Shown: piece by piece, positions 10,740-19,012 of the stretch
Numbering within the stretch: position 1 is the stretch's first letter
Layout of the letters: every line of letters begins with the position of its first letter
DNA from: Dehalococcoidia bacterium
Lineage (GTDB): Bacteria; Chloroflexota; Dehalococcoidia; UBA2979
Assembly: GCA_009692725.1 (NCBI GenBank)
Contig: SHYP01000004.1
Coordinates: forward strand, 17,027-81,026
Reading direction: 5' to 3'
DNA length: 64,000 bases
The notes under the pieces: generated by a model
The model's database searches: none
The model's input: only the letters and a program-made list of their open reading frames with translations
What the model was told of the DNA's origin: nothing
Made by a program: the position numbers and the translations under genes

Positions 10740-13700
10740 CTAACCCGTCGACAAGCGCACCGTGCTGCCCGCGCCCTCGCGCACCACCTCGAAGCGGTCC
10801 GCCAGCCGCTCCGCGACGAGCGGCACGTGCGAGATCACGCCGATGACGCGCTGCCCGCCCGCGAGCAGCTCCAGCCCCTCCAGCGCCACGTCCAGCGAAT
10901 CCGCGTCGAGCGACCCGAACCCCTCGTCGAGGAACAGCGACTCGAGCGAGACCGCGCCGCCGTGCCCTGCCAGCTCCGGCAGCCGTTCCGCCAGCGCCAG
11001 CGCCAGCGCCAGGCTCGCCAGGAACGTCTCGCCGCCGGACAGCGTCTTCACGGACCGTGCCTCGTCACCGTTCAGCCGGTCCACCACCTGGAACTCGTCG
11101 TCCAGCACGCGCAGCCGGTACCGCCCGCGACTCAGCTGCTCCAGGTGGCCCGCCGCCTCGTTCGCCAGCGCGTGCATCGCCTCGCGCTGCACGAACGCGA
11201 CGAAGCGGTTGCGATGCAGCTCCTGCTCGAGCGCCCCCGCGAGCTCCGCGCCCTGCGCGAACGCCTGCTGCTGCTCCGCGAGCTGCGCCGCCTCCGTGCG
11301 CTCACGCGCCGCCGCCTCCAGCCGCGCCCCCAGCCCGCCGAGCGCGCCCGCCGCGTCCTGCTCCGCGCGATCGAGCCGCGTCGCCGCCGCCCCCAGCGTC
11401 GCCGCGTCCGGCGGCGATTCCAGACGCAGCCGCTCCCGCGCCGCGCCCGCGTACGCGTCGCGCGCCGCACACGCGCGCCGCTCCGCTTCCGCGCACGCCG
11501 CCTGCGCCGTCGCCGCCTGCGCCGCCGCGAGCCCGGCCGCGGCCGCACGCTCATCGCGGCGCGCGCTCGCCGCTGCTTGCGCCTGCGCGCTCTCGTGCAG
11601 CGCCGCGCCCAGCGCCTCAACGTGCGCCGCGAGCGCGAGCGCGGCCGCGAGCGCCGCCCGCAGCGCCGCCACGCCGCCCGGCGCCGCGTCGGGGTGCGCG
11701 GCCGCCAGCTGCTGCGCGTGCGCCGCCGCCTCCCGCTCCGTCCCCGCCGCCTGCTCCACCAGCGCCGCCGCCGAGCGCGCGCGATGCTCCGCCTCCAGCT
11801 CGGCGCGTTCCGCCGCGCTCACCGCCGCCGTCGCGGCTGCGGCCGCTGCTACCGCGCGCTCGAGCGCCTCCCGCGCCACGCTGAGACTCGCTACCGTGAC
11901 CGTCGCACGCGCACGTCCGTCCGCGCGGCCCCACGTGCGCACCGCGAGCGCAGACTCCGCCATTTCGTCTCCCCCTCGCCCCGCAGGGGAGAGGGGGCCG
12001 GGGGGTGAGGGTTCAGGCTCCGGCAGCCCCTCGGGGAGCGCGGCAAGCGCGAAGCTCAGCTCCCGTTCCGCGAGCGCCGCCGCGCGCTCGGCCGCCACCG
12101 CCGCTGTCGCGCGCCCGCGCTCCGCCGCCGCGGCCACCACCGCTTCGCGTGCCGCACCCTCGACGTCTACGCGCGCCACGTCCGCCGCCGCGCACGCCCC
12201 CACCAGCGTCGCCTCCGCGTCGGCGAGCGATGCCGCCGCGCTGCGCGCACCCTCGACGCGCGCGTGGGCCGCTGCCGCCTCGTTGCCCGCCCGCTCGAGC
12301 GTGGCGCGCGCAGCGTCCAGCGCCGCCGCCGCTTCCACGCACGTCGCCTCCGCGGCATCGAGGTCGGGCGCCGCGCACGCCGCCACGCGCTCGATCGGCG
12401 CGCCGCACACAGGACACGGGTCGCCCGGACGCAGCTCGCGTTGCAGCTGCGCGGCCGCGTTCACGCGGCGCGCGACCGCGAGCGCCGCCTGCGCGCGCTC
12501 CGCGTCCGCAGCCGCCGCCGCCGTGCAGCCAAGCGCCTCCCGGCGCGCCGCCTCACACTGCGCCGCCGCTACGACCGCGCGCTGCAACGCCGCGTCGGCC
12601 TGCTGCTGCTGCACCAGCAGCGCCGCGCCGCGCGCAGCAAGCTCCGCGAACACGTGCCCGCGCTGCTCCTCGCCGCTCGCCGCGGCCTCCGCGCGCGAGC
12701 GTTCGACTTGTGCGCTCGCCACCGTCGTCGCGAGCTCGTCGCGCGCGACACGCGCCCCGGTCGCGAGCGGCGCGAGCGCCGCCGCCGCGCGCCGCTGCGC
12801 TGCGCCCGCCGCCTCGAGGTCCCGCCGCGCGCCGTCCGCGGCCGCACGCGCCGCGTCGCGCGCCGCGCACGCGACACGCGCCGCCTCCGCATGAGCCGCC
12901 GCCTGCGCCACCGCGCGCGCGTGCGCGGCCTCCGCCTGCTCGCGCTGCGCCGCCATCGCCAGCGCGCGCTCCAGCTCGCGCTGCGCCGCCTCGTCGTACG
13001 CGACCGACGCGCGCTCCGTCGCCAGCGCCCGCGCACGCAGCTCGGCGTCCGCGAGCGCCGTCGCTGCACCGGCCGCCGCGCGCTCCGCGCCGAGGCACGC
13101 CTCCGCCGCCAGCCGCGCTGCCGCAGCCGCCGCGGTCGCCTCACGCGCCCGCTCCGCCGCCTCGCGTTCGAGCGTGACGAGCGCCGCCACCGCCTCGCGC
13201 TGCGCGACGATCGCCTCGCGCCGCCGCAGCAGCTCCGCGCGCTCACGCTCGAGCTCCGCCTGCGCCTCGGGCGTCGCTAGCGTCAGCCGCGCGCGCTGCT
13301 GCTCGAGCGCCGTCGCCGCCAGCCGCGCGCCGCTCGCGCGCGCCCGCCCCGCCCGCCCCATCGCCTCGTACACGCCCAGCCCGAGCAAGTTCGCGAGGAT
13401 GTCGCGCCGCTCGCCCGGATCGCCGCGCAGGAACGCGTCGAACGCGCCCTGCGGCAGCAACATCGTCTTCGTGAACGTCGCGTAGTCGAGCCCGAGCAGC
13501 GCGCGCACGCGCGCCGTCACGTCCTTCGCGCGGTCCGCCAGCGCCTCCCACGACCCATCCCCGAGCAACCGCTCGAGCCGGTACGCGCTCGCGCGCCCGA
13601 TCTGCCGGCTCACGCGATACGTCTCGCTGCCCACCGTGAAGTCGAGCCGCGCCGCCATCACCGTCGCGCCGTGCGACAGCAGTTGCCGCGTCTCCTTGCC

Positions 13701-13868
13701 GACGCGCGGCACCTCGCCGTATAAGGCCCACGTCATCGCGTCGAGCAGCGACGACTTGCCCGCGCCCGTCGGCCCCGTGATCGCGAACAGCCGCCGCCCG
13801 CGGAAGTCCACGACAGTGCGCTCGCGGAACGCCGTGAAGCCGCGCAGCTCCAGCTCCAGCGGCTTCAC
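10740..13868 (-). CDS. sbcC: SbcC (Rad50-like) ATPase subunit
   Basis: Large SMC-like subunit of the SbcCD nuclease, 1042 residues. It has Walker A GPTGAGKSS (32-40), two long Ala/Arg/Glu-rich coiled coils, the zinc-hook CPVC at ~485-488, the signature LSGGETF near ~940 and Walker B SLFLDEGFGSLD. With SbcD it processes DNA ends and hairpins. The GTG start overlaps the sbcD stop by 4 bp (GTGA at 13868-13865). Within the second coiled coil (~619-634) a Pro/Gly-rich EPEPSPPGPLSPAGRGG stretch breaks the Ala-rich pattern. It is encoded by a GC-rich palindromic repeat (11968-12014) also found in nurA, so it looks like an in-frame insertion. Confidence 0.95.
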   Translation of the reverse strand: MKPLELELRGFTAFRERTVVDFRGRRLFAITGPTGAGKSSLLDAMTWALYGEVPRVGKETRQLLSHGATVMAARLDFTVGSETYRVSRQIGRASAYRLERLLGDGSWEALADRAKDVTARVRALLGLDYATFTKTMLLPQGAFDAFLRGDPGERRDILANLLGLGVYEAMGRAGRARASGARLAATALEQQRARLTLATPEAQAELERERAELLRRREAIVAQREAVAALVTLEREAAERAREATAAAAAARLAAEACLGAERAAAGAATALADAELRARALATERASVAYDEAAQRELERALAMAAQREQAEAAHARAVAQAAAHAEAARVACAARDAARAAADGARRDLEAAGAAQRRAAAALAPLATGARVARDELATTVASAQVERSRAEAAASGEEQRGHVFAELAARGAALLVQQQQADAALQRAVVAAAQCEAARREALGCTAAAAADAERAQAALAVARRVNAAAQLQRELRPGDPCPVCGAPIERVAACAAPDLDAAEATCVEAAAALDAARATLERAGNEAAAAHARVEGARSAAASLADAEATLVGACAAADVARVDVEGAAREAVVAAAAERGRATAAVAAERAAALAERELSFALAALPEGLPEPEPSPPGPLSPAGRGGDEMAESALAVRTWGRADGRARATVTVASLSVAREALERAVAAAAAATAAVSAAERAELEAEHRARSAAALVEQAAGTEREAAAHAQQLAAAHPDAAPGGVAALRAALAAALALAAHVEALGAALHESAQAQAAASARRDERAAAAGLAAAQAATAQAACAEAERRACAARDAYAGAARERLRLESPPDAATLGAAATRLDRAEQDAAGALGGLGARLEAAARERTEAAQLAEQQQAFAQGAELAGALEQELHRNRFVAFVQREAMHALANEAAGHLEQLSRGRYRLRVLDDEFQVVDRLNGDEARSVKTLSGGETFLASLALALALAERLPELAGHGGAVSLESLFLDEGFGSLDADSLDVALEGLELLAGGQRVIGVISHVPLVAERLADRFEVVREGAGSTVRLSTG
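11968..12014. repeat. GC-rich palindromic repeat, copy A (inside sbcC)
   Basis: CCCCCTCGCCCC and GGGGAGAGGGGG form an imperfect stem around a short variable loop, followed by a conserved CCGGGGGGTGAGGGTT tail. It is translated in frame on the minus strand as EPSPPGPLSP plus flanking residues. The same element occurs at 16916-16964 and 18138-18190. Confidence 0.88.
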
Positions 13869-15055
13869 GCCACCGGCTCCGCCATCAGCGCGGCCTCTTC
13901 CGCCAGCACCTGCTCGTGCAGCTCCCGGAACAGCGCGAGCAGCTCGACGGCCGGCGCCGCGCCGTGCTGCTGCACGTAGTAGCGCGCGAACAGCTCCTCC
14001 GGCTGCAAATGCGCGATGCCGATCGGCTCCGCCTCCTCCACCGATGGATAGTCGAGCCGCACGTCCACCGCGCCCGGCAACTGCTCCCGCACGCGCTGCG
14101 CGAGCCCCGGCTCCGGTCGCTCGACGTCGAGCACGACGCGCAGGTGTGCATCCCCCGCGCGCTCCGCCTCCACCAGCACGCGGTCCAGCGTTCCGCGCAG
14201 CTCCAGCAGCGCACGCCCGCTGCGCAGCAGGATCGCGCGCTGCGTCGCCGGCCGCCCCGCCGACGCCTCCACCAGCCGCACGACCTTCTGCTGCCCGCGC
14301 TCGCCGAAGTCGAGCTGCAGCAACGAGCCCGCGTACGCCGCCGGCACCGGCGCGCCCTGCAGCTCCTGCGGCTCGTGCACGTGCCCCAGCGCGACGTACT
14401 GCGCGGACGCCGGCAGCCGCTGCGCGGGCAGCGCGTACGTCTGCCCGATGTGCACCAACCGCTCCGAGCCGTCCACCGTCGCCACGCGCGCGCCGTCGAT
14501 GAACACGTGGCCGAGCAGCAGGTTCACCGCGCCCGCGTCGAAGCCCGCGCACATCGCGGCGTAGATGCGCGCGACGCCGTCCGCGTAGCTCGCGAACCAC
14601 TGTTCCTGCAGCTCCATCACCTGCGCCGCGTCCACCACGCGCCCCTCCGCGACGAACGGCACCGCCGCGATGCGCGCCGTCTCCCCCGCGCGCCCCTCGA
14701 TGGTGAGCACGCCGCCGCCGTCCGGCCGCAGCAGCTTCGACTGCGTCTGCACGCCGAGCAGCTCCGACAGCAGCCCCAGCCCCTCGAGCTTGCGCGCCGA
14801 GTCGTGGTTGCCCGCGAGCAGCACTACCTGGATGCCGCTGTCGATGCACTGGCGCAGCGCGTCGTACACCAGCCGATCCGCCTCCGGCGGCGGCGTCTGC
14901 GAATCCCACACGTCCCCCGCCACGAGCAGCGCGTCGACGTGCTCCGCGCGTGCGATCCCCACCACCTCCGCCAGCACCTGCTCGAACTCCGCCACGCGGC
15001 TACGCCCGCGCATCGTGCGGCCGACGTGCCAGTCCGCGCTGTGCAGGAAACGCAT
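13865..15055 (-). CDS. sbcD: SbcD (Mre11-like) nuclease subunit
   Basis: Mn-dependent exonuclease/endonuclease subunit, 396 residues. Phosphoesterase motifs are complete: SADWHVG (D8, H10), LVAGDVWD, LLAGNHDS, LLGHVF and ALGHVHEP. The ATG at 15055 is preceded by GAGGAGGG-type sequence and fits the family N-terminus MRFLHSADWH. It sits between herA and sbcC and overlaps sbcC by 4 bp, so the two subunits are made together. Together with the upstream genes it forms an archaeal-type Mre11-Rad50-HerA-NurA cluster. Confidence 0.95.
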   Translation of the reverse strand: MRFLHSADWHVGRTMRGRSRVAEFEQVLAEVVGIARAEHVDALLVAGDVWDSQTPPPEADRLVYDALRQCIDSGIQVVLLAGNHDSARKLEGLGLLSELLGVQTQSKLLRPDGGGVLTIEGRAGETARIAAVPFVAEGRVVDAAQVMELQEQWFASYADGVARIYAAMCAGFDAGAVNLLLGHVFIDGARVATVDGSERLVHIGQTYALPAQRLPASAQYVALGHVHEPQELQGAPVPAAYAGSLLQLDFGERGQQKVVRLVEASAGRPATQRAILLRSGRALLELRGTLDRVLVEAERAGDAHLRVVLDVERPEPGLAQRVREQLPGAVDVRLDYPSVEEAEPIGIAHLQPEELFARYYVQQHGAAPAVELLALFRELHEQVLAEEAALMAEPVA

Positions 15056-15072
15056 CGGCCCCTCCTCGCTCG

Positions 15073-16839
15073 CTACGAGTCCCAGCGGATCGCGCCCACC
15101 GCGGGCGCGACCTCCGAGGCGCGCGTCGCCCACGCCGGGAACGGGAACTGCAGCAGTAGCGGCACCGGGATCTCCGGCTGGTGCACGATCATCGAGCCCG
15201 GCTTCAGCAGGCTCGCGCGCGCCCGCGCCGCCGGCGTGAGAAACCCGTACTCGTTGCGGTGCGCCTCCGCCGCGTCGAGCCGGCCAACGACGCGATACGC
15301 GCAGTTTGCGACCACGCGCGGCTCCACCTCGCTCGCCGTCTGCTGCGCGCCGATCAGCACCACGCCCATCGAGCGCCCGCGCTCCGCGATGTCCAGCAGC
15401 ACGTCCTTGATCGGGCTGTGCCCCTCGCGCGGCGCGTACTTGTTCAGCTCGTCGAGCACCACGAACACCAGCGGCCGCGCCGCCCCGCGCTCCTCCTTCT
15501 GCTCGAACATGCGCTTCAGCACCACGCCGACCACGAACCGCTTCGCGCGATCGTGCAGCCGGTGGATGTCCACCACCGTCACCTGCGCACGATTCCAGTC
15601 GATGCGGTGCGACGCGACGTCCTCCGATGCCTCTCCGCGCACGAGGTGCCCGACGTGCGGCGCCGCCGCTTCGAGCCGCCGCAGGAACGCGTGCACGGTG
15701 CCTGCCGCCGCGCGCCCGCCCCAGCCGCCGCCCTGCTCCGGGTCCGTCTGCTCCGCGATCGCCTCCACCAGCTCGTCGAAGTCCGTGACCAGGCGCCCGC
15801 CGATCTCCACGCTCGCCGCGTCCACCGGCCGCGACAGCCGCGCCGCCAGCGCCAGCTGCGTCTCCACCGCCTGCGCCACGTACCCCACCTGCGAGCGCTC
15901 GTCGTCCGCCTCCGCGAACAGGAAGCGCAGGTAGCGGTTCGCGCAGAACTCGCGCAGCGTCCAGAAGTAGCCCGTCACGCCCTCCAGCCGCGCGCCCGTG
16001 TCCGGGATCGGCTGCGCCCCGCGCCGCACCGGCGCGTAGCACGCCACCGACGCGAACGGCTCCGCCGGCAGCCCGAGCGCCGCGTAGCGCTCGCGATCGA
16101 CGTCGCGCAGCTCGCGGTTCGGCTGGTCCAGGAACAGCAGGTCCTCGCCCTTGACGTTAAACACGATCGATCGCGTGTTCGCCGCCTCGAGGCCGAGCGC
16201 GCCCGACCCGAACAGCGCGTGCAGCAGGAACACCGCGTACGAGGTTTTCGTCGCCACGCCCGAAATGCCCGAGATGTTCACGTGCGCGCCGCGCGTGCCG
16301 TCCAGGAACTCGAGGTTCGCGTACACTGGCTCCCCGCTGCGCGACAAGCCCACCGGCACGCGCGTGCGCATGCCGTCGAAGCACAACGCGGCCTCACGCG
16401 CCGCCCCGTGCGCGCGGAACACCGCGCCACCGGGCAGCGGCGGCACGAAGATCTCCGGCTCCAGCCGGGTCACCGCCACGTGCGCCGCCACCGCGATCTC
16501 CGCCGGCAGCAGCCCGTCGCGCACCAACTGCACGTCGGACTCGAACGTCACGCCCTCGTGCACTGCGCGTACCTCGTCGACGACCCCATACACGTCCACG
16601 GCGCGCCCGGCACTCCCCGGCAGCCCCCCTGGGGGCCCCCCCGGCAGCATCGTGCGCACCTGCACCACGTCGTCGAGCTGTAGGTAGCGCTCCGCCGCGA
16701 CGTGCACCCAGAACCCCAGCGGCGTCGCCGCCTCCCGCGGCGTCCCCAGCACCAGCCCCACCGGCGCCGCGTCGAGCGCCTCGAACTCCGCCACCGTGTC
16801 GCCGCTGCGCGCCTCGGCCCCCGCCGCGTACCCGTTCAA
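15073..16839 (-). CDS. herA: HerA-like DNA translocase ATPase
   Basis: A 588-residue HerA/FtsK-superfamily ATPase (DUF87). The N-terminal HAS-barrel region begins TVAEFEALDAAPVGLVLGT. The P-loop GISGVATKTS is near 190-198, Walker B FVVLDELNKYA near ~460, and downstream conserved RGRSMGVVLIGAQQT and RVVGRLD contain sensor and arginine-finger-like residues. HerA forms hexamers that drive NurA nuclease for DNA-end resection. The best start is TTG at 16839, giving a 4-bp TTGA overlap with the nurA stop; a GTG just before AEFEAL is an alternative. The sbcD ATG follows 17 bp after the stop. Confidence 0.9.
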   Translation of the reverse strand: MNGYAAGAEARSGDTVAEFEALDAAPVGLVLGTPREAATPLGFWVHVAAERYLQLDDVVQVRTMLPGGPPGGLPGSAGRAVDVYGVVDEVRAVHEGVTFESDVQLVRDGLLPAEIAVAAHVAVTRLEPEIFVPPLPGGAVFRAHGAAREAALCFDGMRTRVPVGLSRSGEPVYANLEFLDGTRGAHVNISGISGVATKTSYAVFLLHALFGSGALGLEAANTRSIVFNVKGEDLLFLDQPNRELRDVDRERYAALGLPAEPFASVACYAPVRRGAQPIPDTGARLEGVTGYFWTLREFCANRYLRFLFAEADDERSQVGYVAQAVETQLALAARLSRPVDAASVEIGGRLVTDFDELVEAIAEQTDPEQGGGWGGRAAAGTVHAFLRRLEAAAPHVGHLVRGEASEDVASHRIDWNRAQVTVVDIHRLHDRAKRFVVGVVLKRMFEQKEERGAARPLVFVVLDELNKYAPREGHSPIKDVLLDIAERGRSMGVVLIGAQQTASEVEPRVVANCAYRVVGRLDAAEAHRNEYGFLTPAARARASLLKPGSMIVHQPEIPVPLLLQFPFPAWATRASEVAPAVGAIRWDS

Positions 16840-17972
16840 GCCACCGCTCCCATCCGCTCCTGCTCTCCCTCGCCCGGCCCGGAAGCAAGCGATGGCGCGC
16901 TCGCGATCCGCTCCTGCTCCCCCTCGCCCCGTCCCGGGGAGAGGGGGCCGGGGGGTGAGGGTTCCGGCTCGTGAGCCCCGTGCACATCCATCGCATCGGG
17001 GGGTGAGGGCTCGGACGCCGCTGGCCGCGCCCCGCCAACGTGCGCGTGCAGCAGCCGCGCCACCCAGCGGCGGTCGCCGAGCCGCCGCGTGAGCTCGCGC
17101 TCCAGCGCGCCGACCGCGATCAGGTTCTGCGGCGAACGCGGATCGCGCACCGGCGACGAGGCCAGCCGCGGCAGCGCCGCCGCGCACTGCTCCGCGAGCG
17201 CCACGACCTCCGCCGTGGGCAGCGCGCCCGGTGCCTCCAGCCGCACGACGCCCGCCAGCGGATGGAAGTGCGGCGACAGCTCCGCGATGCGCAGGTACCA
17301 CGAGCTGCGCTCGTGCCCGCCCTCGAGGATGCGGAACAGCGGCGTGCGCTCGCCCACGCGCAGCTGCACGAGCAGCCGCTGCTGCGCGCCGTCGAGGTAC
17401 CAGCGATGCACGCGCTTCACGTACCCGACCACGCGCGGCCCCGGCGACCGCAGCCACAGCGGTCCGTCGACGAGCGTCAGCGCGCCCGTGTCGCGCGACA
17501 GCCGCTCCGCGAGCTTCGCCTCGTCGCCCAGCATCGCGCGGTTGAGCGCCGCCACCAGGTCGTTCGCGCTGCTCGCCTGCGGCGGCAACTGCGCGCGGAA
17601 GCGCAGCGTCGCCGCGCCGCTCCGCAGCTCCAGCGTCGAGGGTGCGCCGCCGGTCTGGAACAGCCGCCGCTCCACGTGGATCGCATCGTCGATGACGCGC
17701 GCGCCATCCCTGTCGACGACGACCGCGCCCGTCGCGTACGACCCAAACAGCCCGAACTGCAGCTCGCCCCCCGGCCCCTCGTCGAGCGCATGCGCCTCCG
17801 CGCGCCGCACGCCATCGACGATGCACAGCGATGGCAACGCCGCCCGCGCAGGCACCGCGACCGCGCGCCATGGCCCCTCGACTGCCACGTCGATGGCAGC
17901 CTCCGCCTCGTGCGCGTCGGCCTGTAGCGCGGTGCCGTACTCGGGAGCCCAGGGCAGCAGTCGGAGCGCCAT
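16836..17972 (-). CDS. nurA: NurA-domain 5'-3' nuclease
   Basis: A 378-residue NurA-like nuclease, recognised by the conserved catalytic block SLCIVDGVRRAEAH (Asp ~53), a later ALTLVDGPLWL block and its position directly before herA. NurA degrades DNA ends with HerA. ATG at 17972 has GAGG 8 nt upstream and a good -10/-35. The last ~60 residues are abnormal: Pro/Ser/Gly/Glu-rich, with EPEPSPPGPLSPGRGEGEQE. They are encoded by palindromic repeat copy B plus a 54-bp duplicated segment, so repeat insertion appears to have extended the C-terminus without breaking the herA overlap. Confidence 0.8.
   Translation of the reverse strand: MALRLLPWAPEYGTALQADAHEAEAAIDVAVEGPWRAVAVPARAALPSLCIVDGVRRAEAHALDEGPGGELQFGLFGSYATGAVVVDRDGARVIDDAIHVERRLFQTGGAPSTLELRSGAATLRFRAQLPPQASSANDLVAALNRAMLGDEAKLAERLSRDTGALTLVDGPLWLRSPGPRVVGYVKRVHRWYLDGAQQRLLVQLRVGERTPLFRILEGGHERSSWYLRIAELSPHFHPLAGVVRLEAPGALPTAEVVALAEQCAAALPRLASSPVRDPRSPQNLIAVGALERELTRRLGDRRWVARLLHAHVGGARPAASEPSPPDAMDVHGAHEPEPSPPGPLSPGRGEGEQERIASAPSLASGPGEGEQERMGAVA
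16852..16935. repeat. 54-bp tandem duplication in the nurA 3' end
   Basis: The segment starting ATCCGCTCCTGCTCTCCCTC at 16852 recurs, slightly diverged, at 16906 as ATCCGCTCCTGCTCCCCCTC. The offset is 54 bp, or 18 codons, so the frame is kept. It produces the GEGEQER motif twice in the NurA tail. Confidence 0.75.
16916..16964. repeat. GC-rich palindromic repeat, copy B (inside nurA)
   Basis: This is the same element as at 11968-12014, with the same CCGGGGGGTGAGGGTT tail and a different loop (GTCC). It is read on the minus strand in the same frame as copy A, giving EPEPSPPGPLSP. A solitary right half (GGGGGGTGAGGGCTCGG) lies at 16998-17013. Confidence 0.88.
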
Positions 17973-17999
17973 GCGATCGCCTCGGGGGGAACCGGGGGG

Positions 18000-18028
18000 A
18001 GTATATGAAGAACAGCCGTTCGTGTCGA
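18000..18028 (-). promoter_or_regulatory. Promoter of the nurA-herA-sbcD-sbcC operon
   Basis: On the minus strand TCGACA (18028-18023), a 17-nt spacer and TATACT (18005-18000) form a near-consensus promoter. The nurA ATG is 28 nt beyond the -10 box with GAGG between them, so this transcript has a short leader. Confidence 0.7.
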
Positions 18029-18088
18029 ACCGATCACCAGCATACGCGTCTCCACAAAGCCCTGGCAACGGACGCCACGCAGCACATA

Positions 18089-18104
18089 TGTTTCACGTGA
18101 AACA
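18089..18104. promoter_or_regulatory. parS centromere site 1
   Basis: TGTTTCACGTGAAACA is a perfect 16-bp palindrome matching the ParB-binding parS consensus. It lies in the intergenic gap between the divergent nurA and menG promoters. Its presence implies a ParABS system and a position in the origin region. Confidence 0.9.
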
Positions 18105-18137
18105 TTGGCCACGATCGAGGCGCAGGCCGCGGGGTCG

Positions 18138-18190
18138 CCTCCCCCTCGCCCCGCCGCGCGGGGAGAGGGGGCCGGGGGATGAGGGTCCGA
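18138..18190. repeat. GC-rich palindromic repeat, copy C (intergenic)
   Basis: The third copy of the family lies between parS and menG. It has stem CCCCCTCGCCCC / GGGGAGAGGGGG with a CGCCGCGC loop region and a slightly changed tail (GGGGGATGAGGGTCC). Confidence 0.88.
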
Positions 18191-18268: not shown

Positions 18269-19012
18269 ATGCCCGATGACGCCCCGAACCCTGAGCCCGC
18301 CGCGCTCTTCGCACACGGCGCCGATCGCGCGGGCTACGTGCAGCGCATGTTCGGCGACATCGCCGGCCGCTACGACCTCATGAACGCGCTGATGACCGGC
18401 GGCCGCCACCACGCGTGGCGACGCCTCACCGCCCGCGCGCTCGTCCGCCCCGGCGACCGCGTGCTCGATGTCGGCTGCGGCACCGGCGACCTCGCCCTCG
18501 CCTGCCGCGCCGCCGGCGCGCGCGCGGTGCTCGCCGTCGACTTCGCCGCGCCGATGCTCGCGCGCGCCCGCCGCAAGGCGCGCCGCCGCGGCAGGAGCGA
18601 CATCGCCGTCGCGCTCGCCGACGCGACGCGGCTCCCCTGCGCCGACGCCACCTTCGACGTGTGGTGCGCAGCCTTCGTCGTGCGCAACATCCCGGAGCTG
18701 GACGCCGCCCTCGCGGAGGCCGCGCGCGTGCTCCGCCCCGGCGGCCGCCTCGGCATCCTCGAAATCCCCCGCCTCGAACGCAGCTGGTGGCGCCCCTTCG
18801 CGCGCCTGTACTTCCAGCGCGTCGTGCCGCTGCTCGGCCGCGCGATCTCCGGCCACGCGAGCGCGTACCGCTACCTCCCGGTCTCCGTCGACCATTTCCT
18901 GTCGATCGACGAGCTCTCCGCCCGGCTCGCACGCGTCGGCTTCGCTGTCCGCGAGGCGCGGCCGCTCATGCTCGGCACGGTCGCACTGCACATCGCCGAA
19001 CGCCCCGCCTAG
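18269..19012 (+). CDS. menG: Demethylmenaquinone/ubiquinone methyltransferase
   Basis: SAM-dependent C-methyltransferase of the UbiE/MenG family, 247 residues, the last step of menaquinone (or a step of ubiquinone) synthesis. The family signature YDLMNALM(TGG) is at residues 35-45, SAM motif I VLDVGCGTGD at 65-74, and the C-terminal part has RYLPVSVDHFLS. In this kind of organism menaquinone is the likely product. The ATG is 6 nt after a -10-like TAGCCT and no ribosome-binding site is apparent. It is divergent from nurA across an intergenic region holding parS. Confidence 0.9.
   Translation: MPDDAPNPEPAALFAHGADRAGYVQRMFGDIAGRYDLMNALMTGGRHHAWRRLTARALVRPGDRVLDVGCGTGDLALACRAAGARAVLAVDFAAPMLARARRKARRRGRSDIAVALADATRLPCADATFDVWCAAFVVRNIPELDAALAEAARVLRPGGRLGILEIPRLERSWWRPFARLYFQRVVPLLGRAISGHASAYRYLPVSVDHFLSIDELSARLARVGFAVREARPLMLGTVALHIAERPA

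Follow-up and report, generated by a model that had tools for sequence, protein, structure and literature searches.

A short palindromic repeat family of Chloroflexota with a strand-specific frame bias in coding sequence

The window analysed here, a 64,000-nucleotide stretch of a Dehalococcoidia bacterium contig (SHYP01000004.1, positions 17,027 to 81,026), contains three copies of a GC-rich palindromic element, two of which are translated as parts of the genes sbcC and nurA. We found that these copies belong to a family dispersed through many Chloroflexota genomes, that its hairpin covaries in two genome sets, and that copies within recognisable genes are read with a frame bias that is firm on the G-rich strand and suggestive on the C-rich strand. 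The most likely explanation, to which we assign a probability of about three in four, is that the element is a selfish, non-autonomous hairpin repeat resembling repetitive extragenic palindromes (REPs), which after insertion was filtered by selection on length and peptide. The element would thus have spread as DNA in a transposition-like manner, and its phase in genes would be set by selection after insertion rather than by target choice.

The initial annotation had reported three near-identical palindromes in sbcC, in nurA and between genes. All three were recovered at those places, with spans corrected to 43, 45 and 47 nt from arm to arm:

11969..12011, minus strand: palindromic element in sbcC; C-rich strand coding; 43 nt arm to arm with a 3-nt loop; read PSPPGPLSPAGRGG
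16917..16961, minus strand: palindromic element within the 3' tail of nurA; 45 nt or 15 codons, with a 5-nt loop; read PSPPGPLSPGRGEGE
18139..18185, minus strand: intergenic palindromic element, flanked by nurA and by the divergent gene at 18269; 47 nt with a 7-nt loop

The copies, all about 45 nt long, carry their C-rich strand on the minus strand and differ in length by their loops. As had been claimed, the sbcC and nurA copies are read in the same frame, the C-rich strand being the coding strand, and share the reading EPEPSPPGPLSP (PSPPGPLSP). A 23-nt half-element taken from the G-rich strand matched the window three times at up to 3 mismatches and 100 dinucleotide shuffles of it not at all.

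The nearest relatives, identified with the presumed herA-like gene of the window, were L001 (96%) and L002 (88%), belonging to genomes G001 and G002. The family census was run in relatives (G001, G002 and others). With a 26-nt arm and up to 3 mismatches, G001 contained 51 dispersed copies and G002 28; eight other relatives contained none, except for a single copy in G005. Within the class of G001, 46 of 294 genomes matched, several of them through one weak match. A 23-nt pattern allowing 1 mismatch found the arm motif in 45 of 251 sampled Chloroflexota genomes, with up to 153 copies. The motif was absent from all 32 genomes labelled with other or unstated phyla; these were titled Actinobacteria, Acidobacteria, Gemmatimonadetes, Deltaproteobacteria, others, or only 'bacterium', and such titles can be wrong. 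The reversed pattern gave no match in G001, G002, the 251 Chloroflexota genomes or the 32 others, and its matches were confined to G035 (one, in the 294-genome class scan), G289 (one) and G212 (two). The copy numbers of the two relatives predict about 2 or about 1 copy per 64 kb, and three random points would fall within 6.2 kb of such a stretch with P ~0.027. The proposal that all copies cluster at the sbcC-nurA operon was rejected: it describes the window alone, and the copies of G001 and G002 are spread genome-wide. The majority of the family's copies are ordinary intergenic repeats. Among the papers listed by literature searches none was recognised as a description of this Chloroflexota family, a weak negative in that most subscription papers lay outside their coverage.

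The insertion points in sbcC and nurA are identical in separate assemblies. The sbcC copy occupies the same position in G001 (the contigs of G002 stop before the relevant part of sbcC on both sides), and the nurA copy is common to G001 and, in diverged form (23 of 26 arm letters), to G002. The intergenic copy at 18139-18185 has a counterpart in the matching gap of G002 (L172:4779-4825). The peptide PSPPGPLSP was absent from all 21 further, more distant SbcC homologues aligned, and the element peptide from all 15 more distant proteins in an 18-row NurA alignment. Those NurA homologues that bear names are from Dehalococcoidia and Chloroflexi. These results bear out the claim that a palindromic repeat was inserted in frame. 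Two SbcC homologues, P0121 and P0125, compared at the protein level, contain short Pro-rich stretches of other sequence at the insert position of sbcC. Convergent Pro-rich linkers lacking a palindrome were rejected as the source of the window peptide, as unrelated genes share a near-identical DNA core.

Over nine genome sets the core reads CCTCACCCCC-YRG-CCCCCTCTCC, followed by a variable apical stem-loop and GG(A/C)GAGGGGG; the tail and first arm are thus C-rich and conserved, and the right arm is G-rich. The arm-to-arm length is mostly 38-47 nt. In the window's lineage (window, G001 and G002) the apical stem covaries, none of 1000 shuffles of its 42 distinct loops reaching the observed pairing. 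The same holds for G212 (0 of 1000 shuffles), where the three positions are paired in 24, 23 and 21 of the 26 distinct loops and the first is occupied by A-T, T-A and C-G pairs. The sole Rfam match, mir-150, was far below cut-off. As judged from sequence, the tail CCTCACCCCC (window 11986-12011 and its copies) is almost a mirror image of the arm and could pack against the hairpin as its third strand, and a potential for G-quadruplex or triplex formation was noted. Sister subfamilies were observed in G289 (CCTCATCCCCCGGCCCCTTCTCC, L229-L235, with the right arm GGAGAAGGGG matching in most of the seven) and in G212 (CCTCACCCCCCGGCCCCCTGCTC).

Genes were called with our own codon-bias script trained on fetched loci, and a copy was scored as coding when both flanks carried coding signal. 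All listed places were covered in G001 and G002, 74 of 76 in G351, 30 loci each in G212 (69 places) and G289 (34 places), and the first listed places in G328, G394, G366, G478 and G336. Coding copies made up 16 of 88 in the window's lineage, 12 of 77 in G351, 2 of 33 in G289 and 0 of 32 in G212; genomes with coding copies have 67-73% GC. Five genomes of 51-61% GC gave none among 81 copies (G328 0/15, G394 0/19, G366 0/15, G478 0/20 and G336 0/12). In addition to sbcC and nurA, host genes of the window's lineage identified with Pfam and NCBIfam encode PurL, a GAF-HisKA kinase, NuoG, RecG (two copies), Lhr-LigD, CysS, a NUDIX protein, a fumarate reductase/succinate dehydrogenase-like flavoprotein and a thioesterase. 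Those of G351 encode a DUF2298 membrane protein, a family 21 glycosyltransferase, an MmeI/Eco57I-type methyltransferase and a ketoacyl-synthase protein that contains several copies of the element. Pfam assigned no family to the G351 proteins at L314, L386 and L415 or to the L162 protein, and L394 and L411 gave matches below cut-off only. PurL and CysS exceed their NCBIfam equivalog cut-offs with the insert included. Compared with homologues in other genomes, the inserts of CysS, RecG, NuoG, Lhr-LigD and PurL lie in variable linkers or near protein ends, and SbcC and RecG of relatives have variable low-complexity linkers at the insert positions. Gene-internal copies persist as short and probably flexible protein stretches. 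Two unusual loci were also seen: a G351 ketoacyl-synthase-like gene of 1941 codons (L317:1078-6900) contains five element copies in both orientations, and at L168:4506-5447 of G002 the element connects, in one open frame, the C-terminus of a glycosyltransferase with a domain of beta-lactamase fold, perhaps through gene fusion.

Frames were labelled by the peptide they give. The C-rich strand can be read as PSP (the frame seen in the window), LTP or PHP, and the G-rich strand as GEG or VR, its third frame being closed by TGA. Orthologues were merged by hand, each gene was counted once per strand, and final labels were set by the tail end. The counted genes are as follows:

C-rich strand, PSP: SbcC, NurA, PurL, kinase, GT-MBL (glycosyltransferase and beta-lactamase fold), L167; G351 L317, L382; G289 L210
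C-rich strand, LTP: NuoG; G351 L394, L415
C-rich strand, PHP: RecG; G351 L314
G-rich strand, GEG: Lhr-LigD, L162, flavoprotein, thioesterase, CysS, NUDIX; G351 L317, L325, L386, L392, L411; G289 L227

On the G-rich strand all 12 genes use GEG, one of two open frames (one-sided binomial P = 0.0002). The 14 genes of the C-rich strand divide into PSP 9, LTP 3 and PHP 2 (one-sided binomial P = 0.017). The frame preference first seen in two genes thus extends, as a bias, over many genes, but no single frame serves throughout: the preferred frame differs between the strands, and 5 of the 14 C-strand genes depart from PSP.

Several assignments behind these counts were made by hand. Copies scored as 'edge' were excluded beforehand (17 in the window's lineage, 8 in G351, 6 in G289, 4 in G212 and 1 in G366). 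The excluded copies of the window's lineage included five read as LTP and five as VR, four of the latter overlapping a predicted start and one lying near a gene end; VR was also found once each among those of G351 and G212, the latter copy overlapping a start. The script had also scored the copies in nurA, and the second of the two in RecG, as 'edge'; nurA was added by hand and RecG counted once. Two copies in G351 L317 were scripted as 'stop' yet read GGEG at the tail, and the gene was entered once per strand. The script called L152 on the opposite strand, and this event appears in the counts under the orthologue L162. L163 was relabelled from another frame to GEG because loop length shifts the arms relative to each other. 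L167 is weak, with 25 codons upstream, and GT-MBL possibly represents a gene fusion.

Net charge distinguishes the frames of the 5-nt-loop consensus. On the C-rich strand the common frame has a charge of -2 compared to +2 and +3 for the others, and on the G-rich strand the used frame has 0 compared to +4, a pattern that fits a filter against basic peptides. Loop length differs as well. Coding genes whose loops could be measured had 5-nt and 7-nt loops at a ratio of 7:1, and intergenic copies at 13:27 (Fisher P = 0.006), coding events being merged over orthologues and intergenic copies unmerged. As for mobility, eight alignments of filled and empty sites gave a clean empty site (L171 against L124) and a likely one (L151:2016/L163), the others being ambiguous; in L132/L169 a shorter copy, not an empty site, lay opposite. 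We propose that a short hairpin repeat would spread as DNA and settle mostly between genes in many Chloroflexota, and that in some GC-rich lineages, such as those of the window and G351, copies would also enter coding sequence. The survivors would be those in which a frame-keeping net insertion coincides with the codon phase that gives a short, flexible, not strongly basic peptide of Pro, Gly, Ser and Glu, and they would lie in a linker, a loop or a protein end.

Several results weigh against this interpretation. Covariation was not significant in seven of the nine sets, G328, G394, G366 and G336 pairing at or below the shuffled mean, and folding-energy z-scores were only 0 to -1.1. The loop comparison weakens to P = 0.09 when 5-nt loops are set against all other lengths. 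No clear target-site duplication was seen in the filled/empty alignments. A mobilising transposase was not identified: Y1_Tnp was found in none of seven near relatives and in 7 of 13 element-rich genomes, in assemblies that are possibly incomplete; a mobiliser like the REP-associated tyrosine transposase (RAYT) is thus neither supported nor excluded. Gene calls rest on our own script, which marks just 59% of G478 as coding, and the histidine kinase of G001 has an orthologue in G002 that is broken into two frames where the element lies (L169:7400-7950). Once SbcC, NurA and the doubtful L167 are set aside, PSP accounts for 6 of 11 C-strand genes (P = 0.12); therefore the G-strand bias is the firm one, and the C-strand bias, the one first noticed in the window, is suggestive. 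The C-rich strand of G351 alone gives 2 PSP, 2 LTP and 1 PHP, frames that the charge rule does not account for.

Of the alternatives, one with a probability of perhaps a quarter is that the element serves mainly as a nucleic-acid signal with a function of its own, such as a REP-like transcript end, a hairpin, or a G-quadruplex or triplex former, and that its coding copies are incidental. The G-rich strand has four G runs of at least 3, the apical stem covaries in two sets, and at 10 orthologous filled sites (12 comparisons) the arms keep 36-40 of 40 letters while the flanks are lower each time, at 64-91%; however, arm identity is inflated here because pairs were chosen for both copies matching the pattern. 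Gaps between convergent genes, which are 14 of 49 gaps in G212, hold 14 of its 27 intergenic copies, but they are not enriched in the window's lineage (8 of 48 copies, 29 of 202 gaps). Somewhat less likely still is that the phase bias reflects an insertion-target preference that falls in one codon phase of high-GC genes, with no need for peptide selection. The half-conserved flanks in the window's lineage, GGAG on the left and CGGA on the right, could belong to a target rather than to the element, but identical flanks occur at intergenic copies. Across three lineages with differing flanks (one represented by a single gene), none of the coding copies counted is read in the second open frame of the G-rich strand, and in the window's lineage the used frames are the less basic ones.

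We consider it improbable that insertions into repair genes were selected for altering repair, as PMC3733652 speculates for REPs, naming Uvr, RecBCD, DNA polymerase I and DnaE/DnaE2 genes. SbcC, NurA, RecG and Lhr-LigD make up 4 of the 14 coding insertions of the window's lineage, but two of the four were grounds for choosing the window, and PurL, CysS, NuoG, the flavoprotein, the thioesterase, the kinase and the named G351 genes are hosts outside repair. Even less probable is a bolder version, in which repeats would persist preferentially in these four hairpin- and fork-processing genes, weakening or retuning the machinery that destroys palindromes and so promoting their own spread. Chance GC-rich or Pro-rich low-complexity sequence, for which the high GC content of coding-copy genomes, the linkers of SbcC and RecG in relatives and the few reversed-pattern matches might speak, is rejected by the shuffles, the reversed pattern in G001 and G002 and the 0 of 32 other-phyla genomes, and an assembly artefact is contradicted by the insertion points shared between separate assemblies.

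The operon and the duplicated segments of the nurA tail comprise the following features:

10740..13868, minus strand: sbcC (1042 aa); Pfam AAA_23 above cut-off, NCBIfam TIGR00618 the best match but below its cut-off
13865..15055, minus strand: sbcD (396 aa); Pfam Metallophos and SbcD_C
15073..16839, minus strand: ATPase without a Pfam match, which we take to be herA-like from its position beside nurA
16836..17972, minus strand: nurA (378 aa); Pfam NurA just above cut-off; conserved to about residue 313, then a lineage-specific tail
16852..16880, minus strand: partial duplicate of the element's right arm and flank in the nurA tail, 90% match to 16906-16934
16997..17012, minus strand: partial duplicate of the element's left end in the nurA tail, 94% match to 16949-16964

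The predicted NurA structure has a mean pLDDT (predicted local distance difference test) of 71, which drops to under 50 in the element-bearing segment of residues 314-378; the insert is thus in a C-terminal tail predicted to be disordered, outside the conserved part. This tail (window 16836-17040) is apparently composed of the element and of partial copies of its arms and flank, duplicated locally. It is similar in G001, and in G002 one diverged copy is followed by a short end.

Comparison with known systems was by description. Rickettsia palindromic elements (RPEs) are short palindromic repeats, intergenic and in frame within unrelated conserved genes, with lengths given as 105-146 or ~150 bp (PMC2229807, PMC10969869). 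The Chloroflexota element is likewise palindromic and in frame inside protein-coding genes, but it is about 45 bp long, GC-rich and used from both strands. The parallel with Rickettsia drawn at the outset holds for the mode of action and fails for length (38-47 nt against 105-150 bp); no RPE-named model was among the NCBIfam matches listed. Wolbachia palindromic elements are reportedly a comparable system. REPs of the GTAG and CGTC superfamilies are 20-40 bp palindromes, mostly intergenic and sometimes intragenic, with many of the intragenic ones in DNA synthesis or repair genes and suggested to lie in linkers or loops; GTAG repeats occur in Chloroflexi too (PMC3733652). The present element is also short, palindromic, multi-copy and mostly intergenic, but the consensus ends of all nine genome sets lack a GTAG or CGTC tag. 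ERIC, YPAL/RU-2 and NEMIS, which are miniature inverted-repeat transposable elements (MITEs), are likewise small repeats for which in-frame fusion to reading frames is described (PMC2229807), but according to that source they are ~100-200 bp long and mostly have target duplications, neither of which was seen here. PMC2229807 also mentions palindromic repeats of Methanocaldococcus jannaschii, an archaeon, which have coding potential and are fused into genes. By analogy, the Chloroflexota family appears to work like RPEs, yet without their defining length or the tag of GTAG/CGTC REPs. We conclude that it is a new family of a kind already known, with the strand-specific frame bias as its notable feature.

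The best-known palindromic inserts read in frame are those of Rickettsia, intracellular bacteria in which genome decay offers a ready excuse; tagged REPs have been reported within genes of some other bacteria. Such inserts recur in at least two lineages of Chloroflexota, where the affected proteins include housekeeping ones such as PurL and CysS and where either strand can be read, each under its own frame rule. The 45 element-bearing genomes among the 251 make it testable whether peptide selection or target choice turns selfish inserts into protein.

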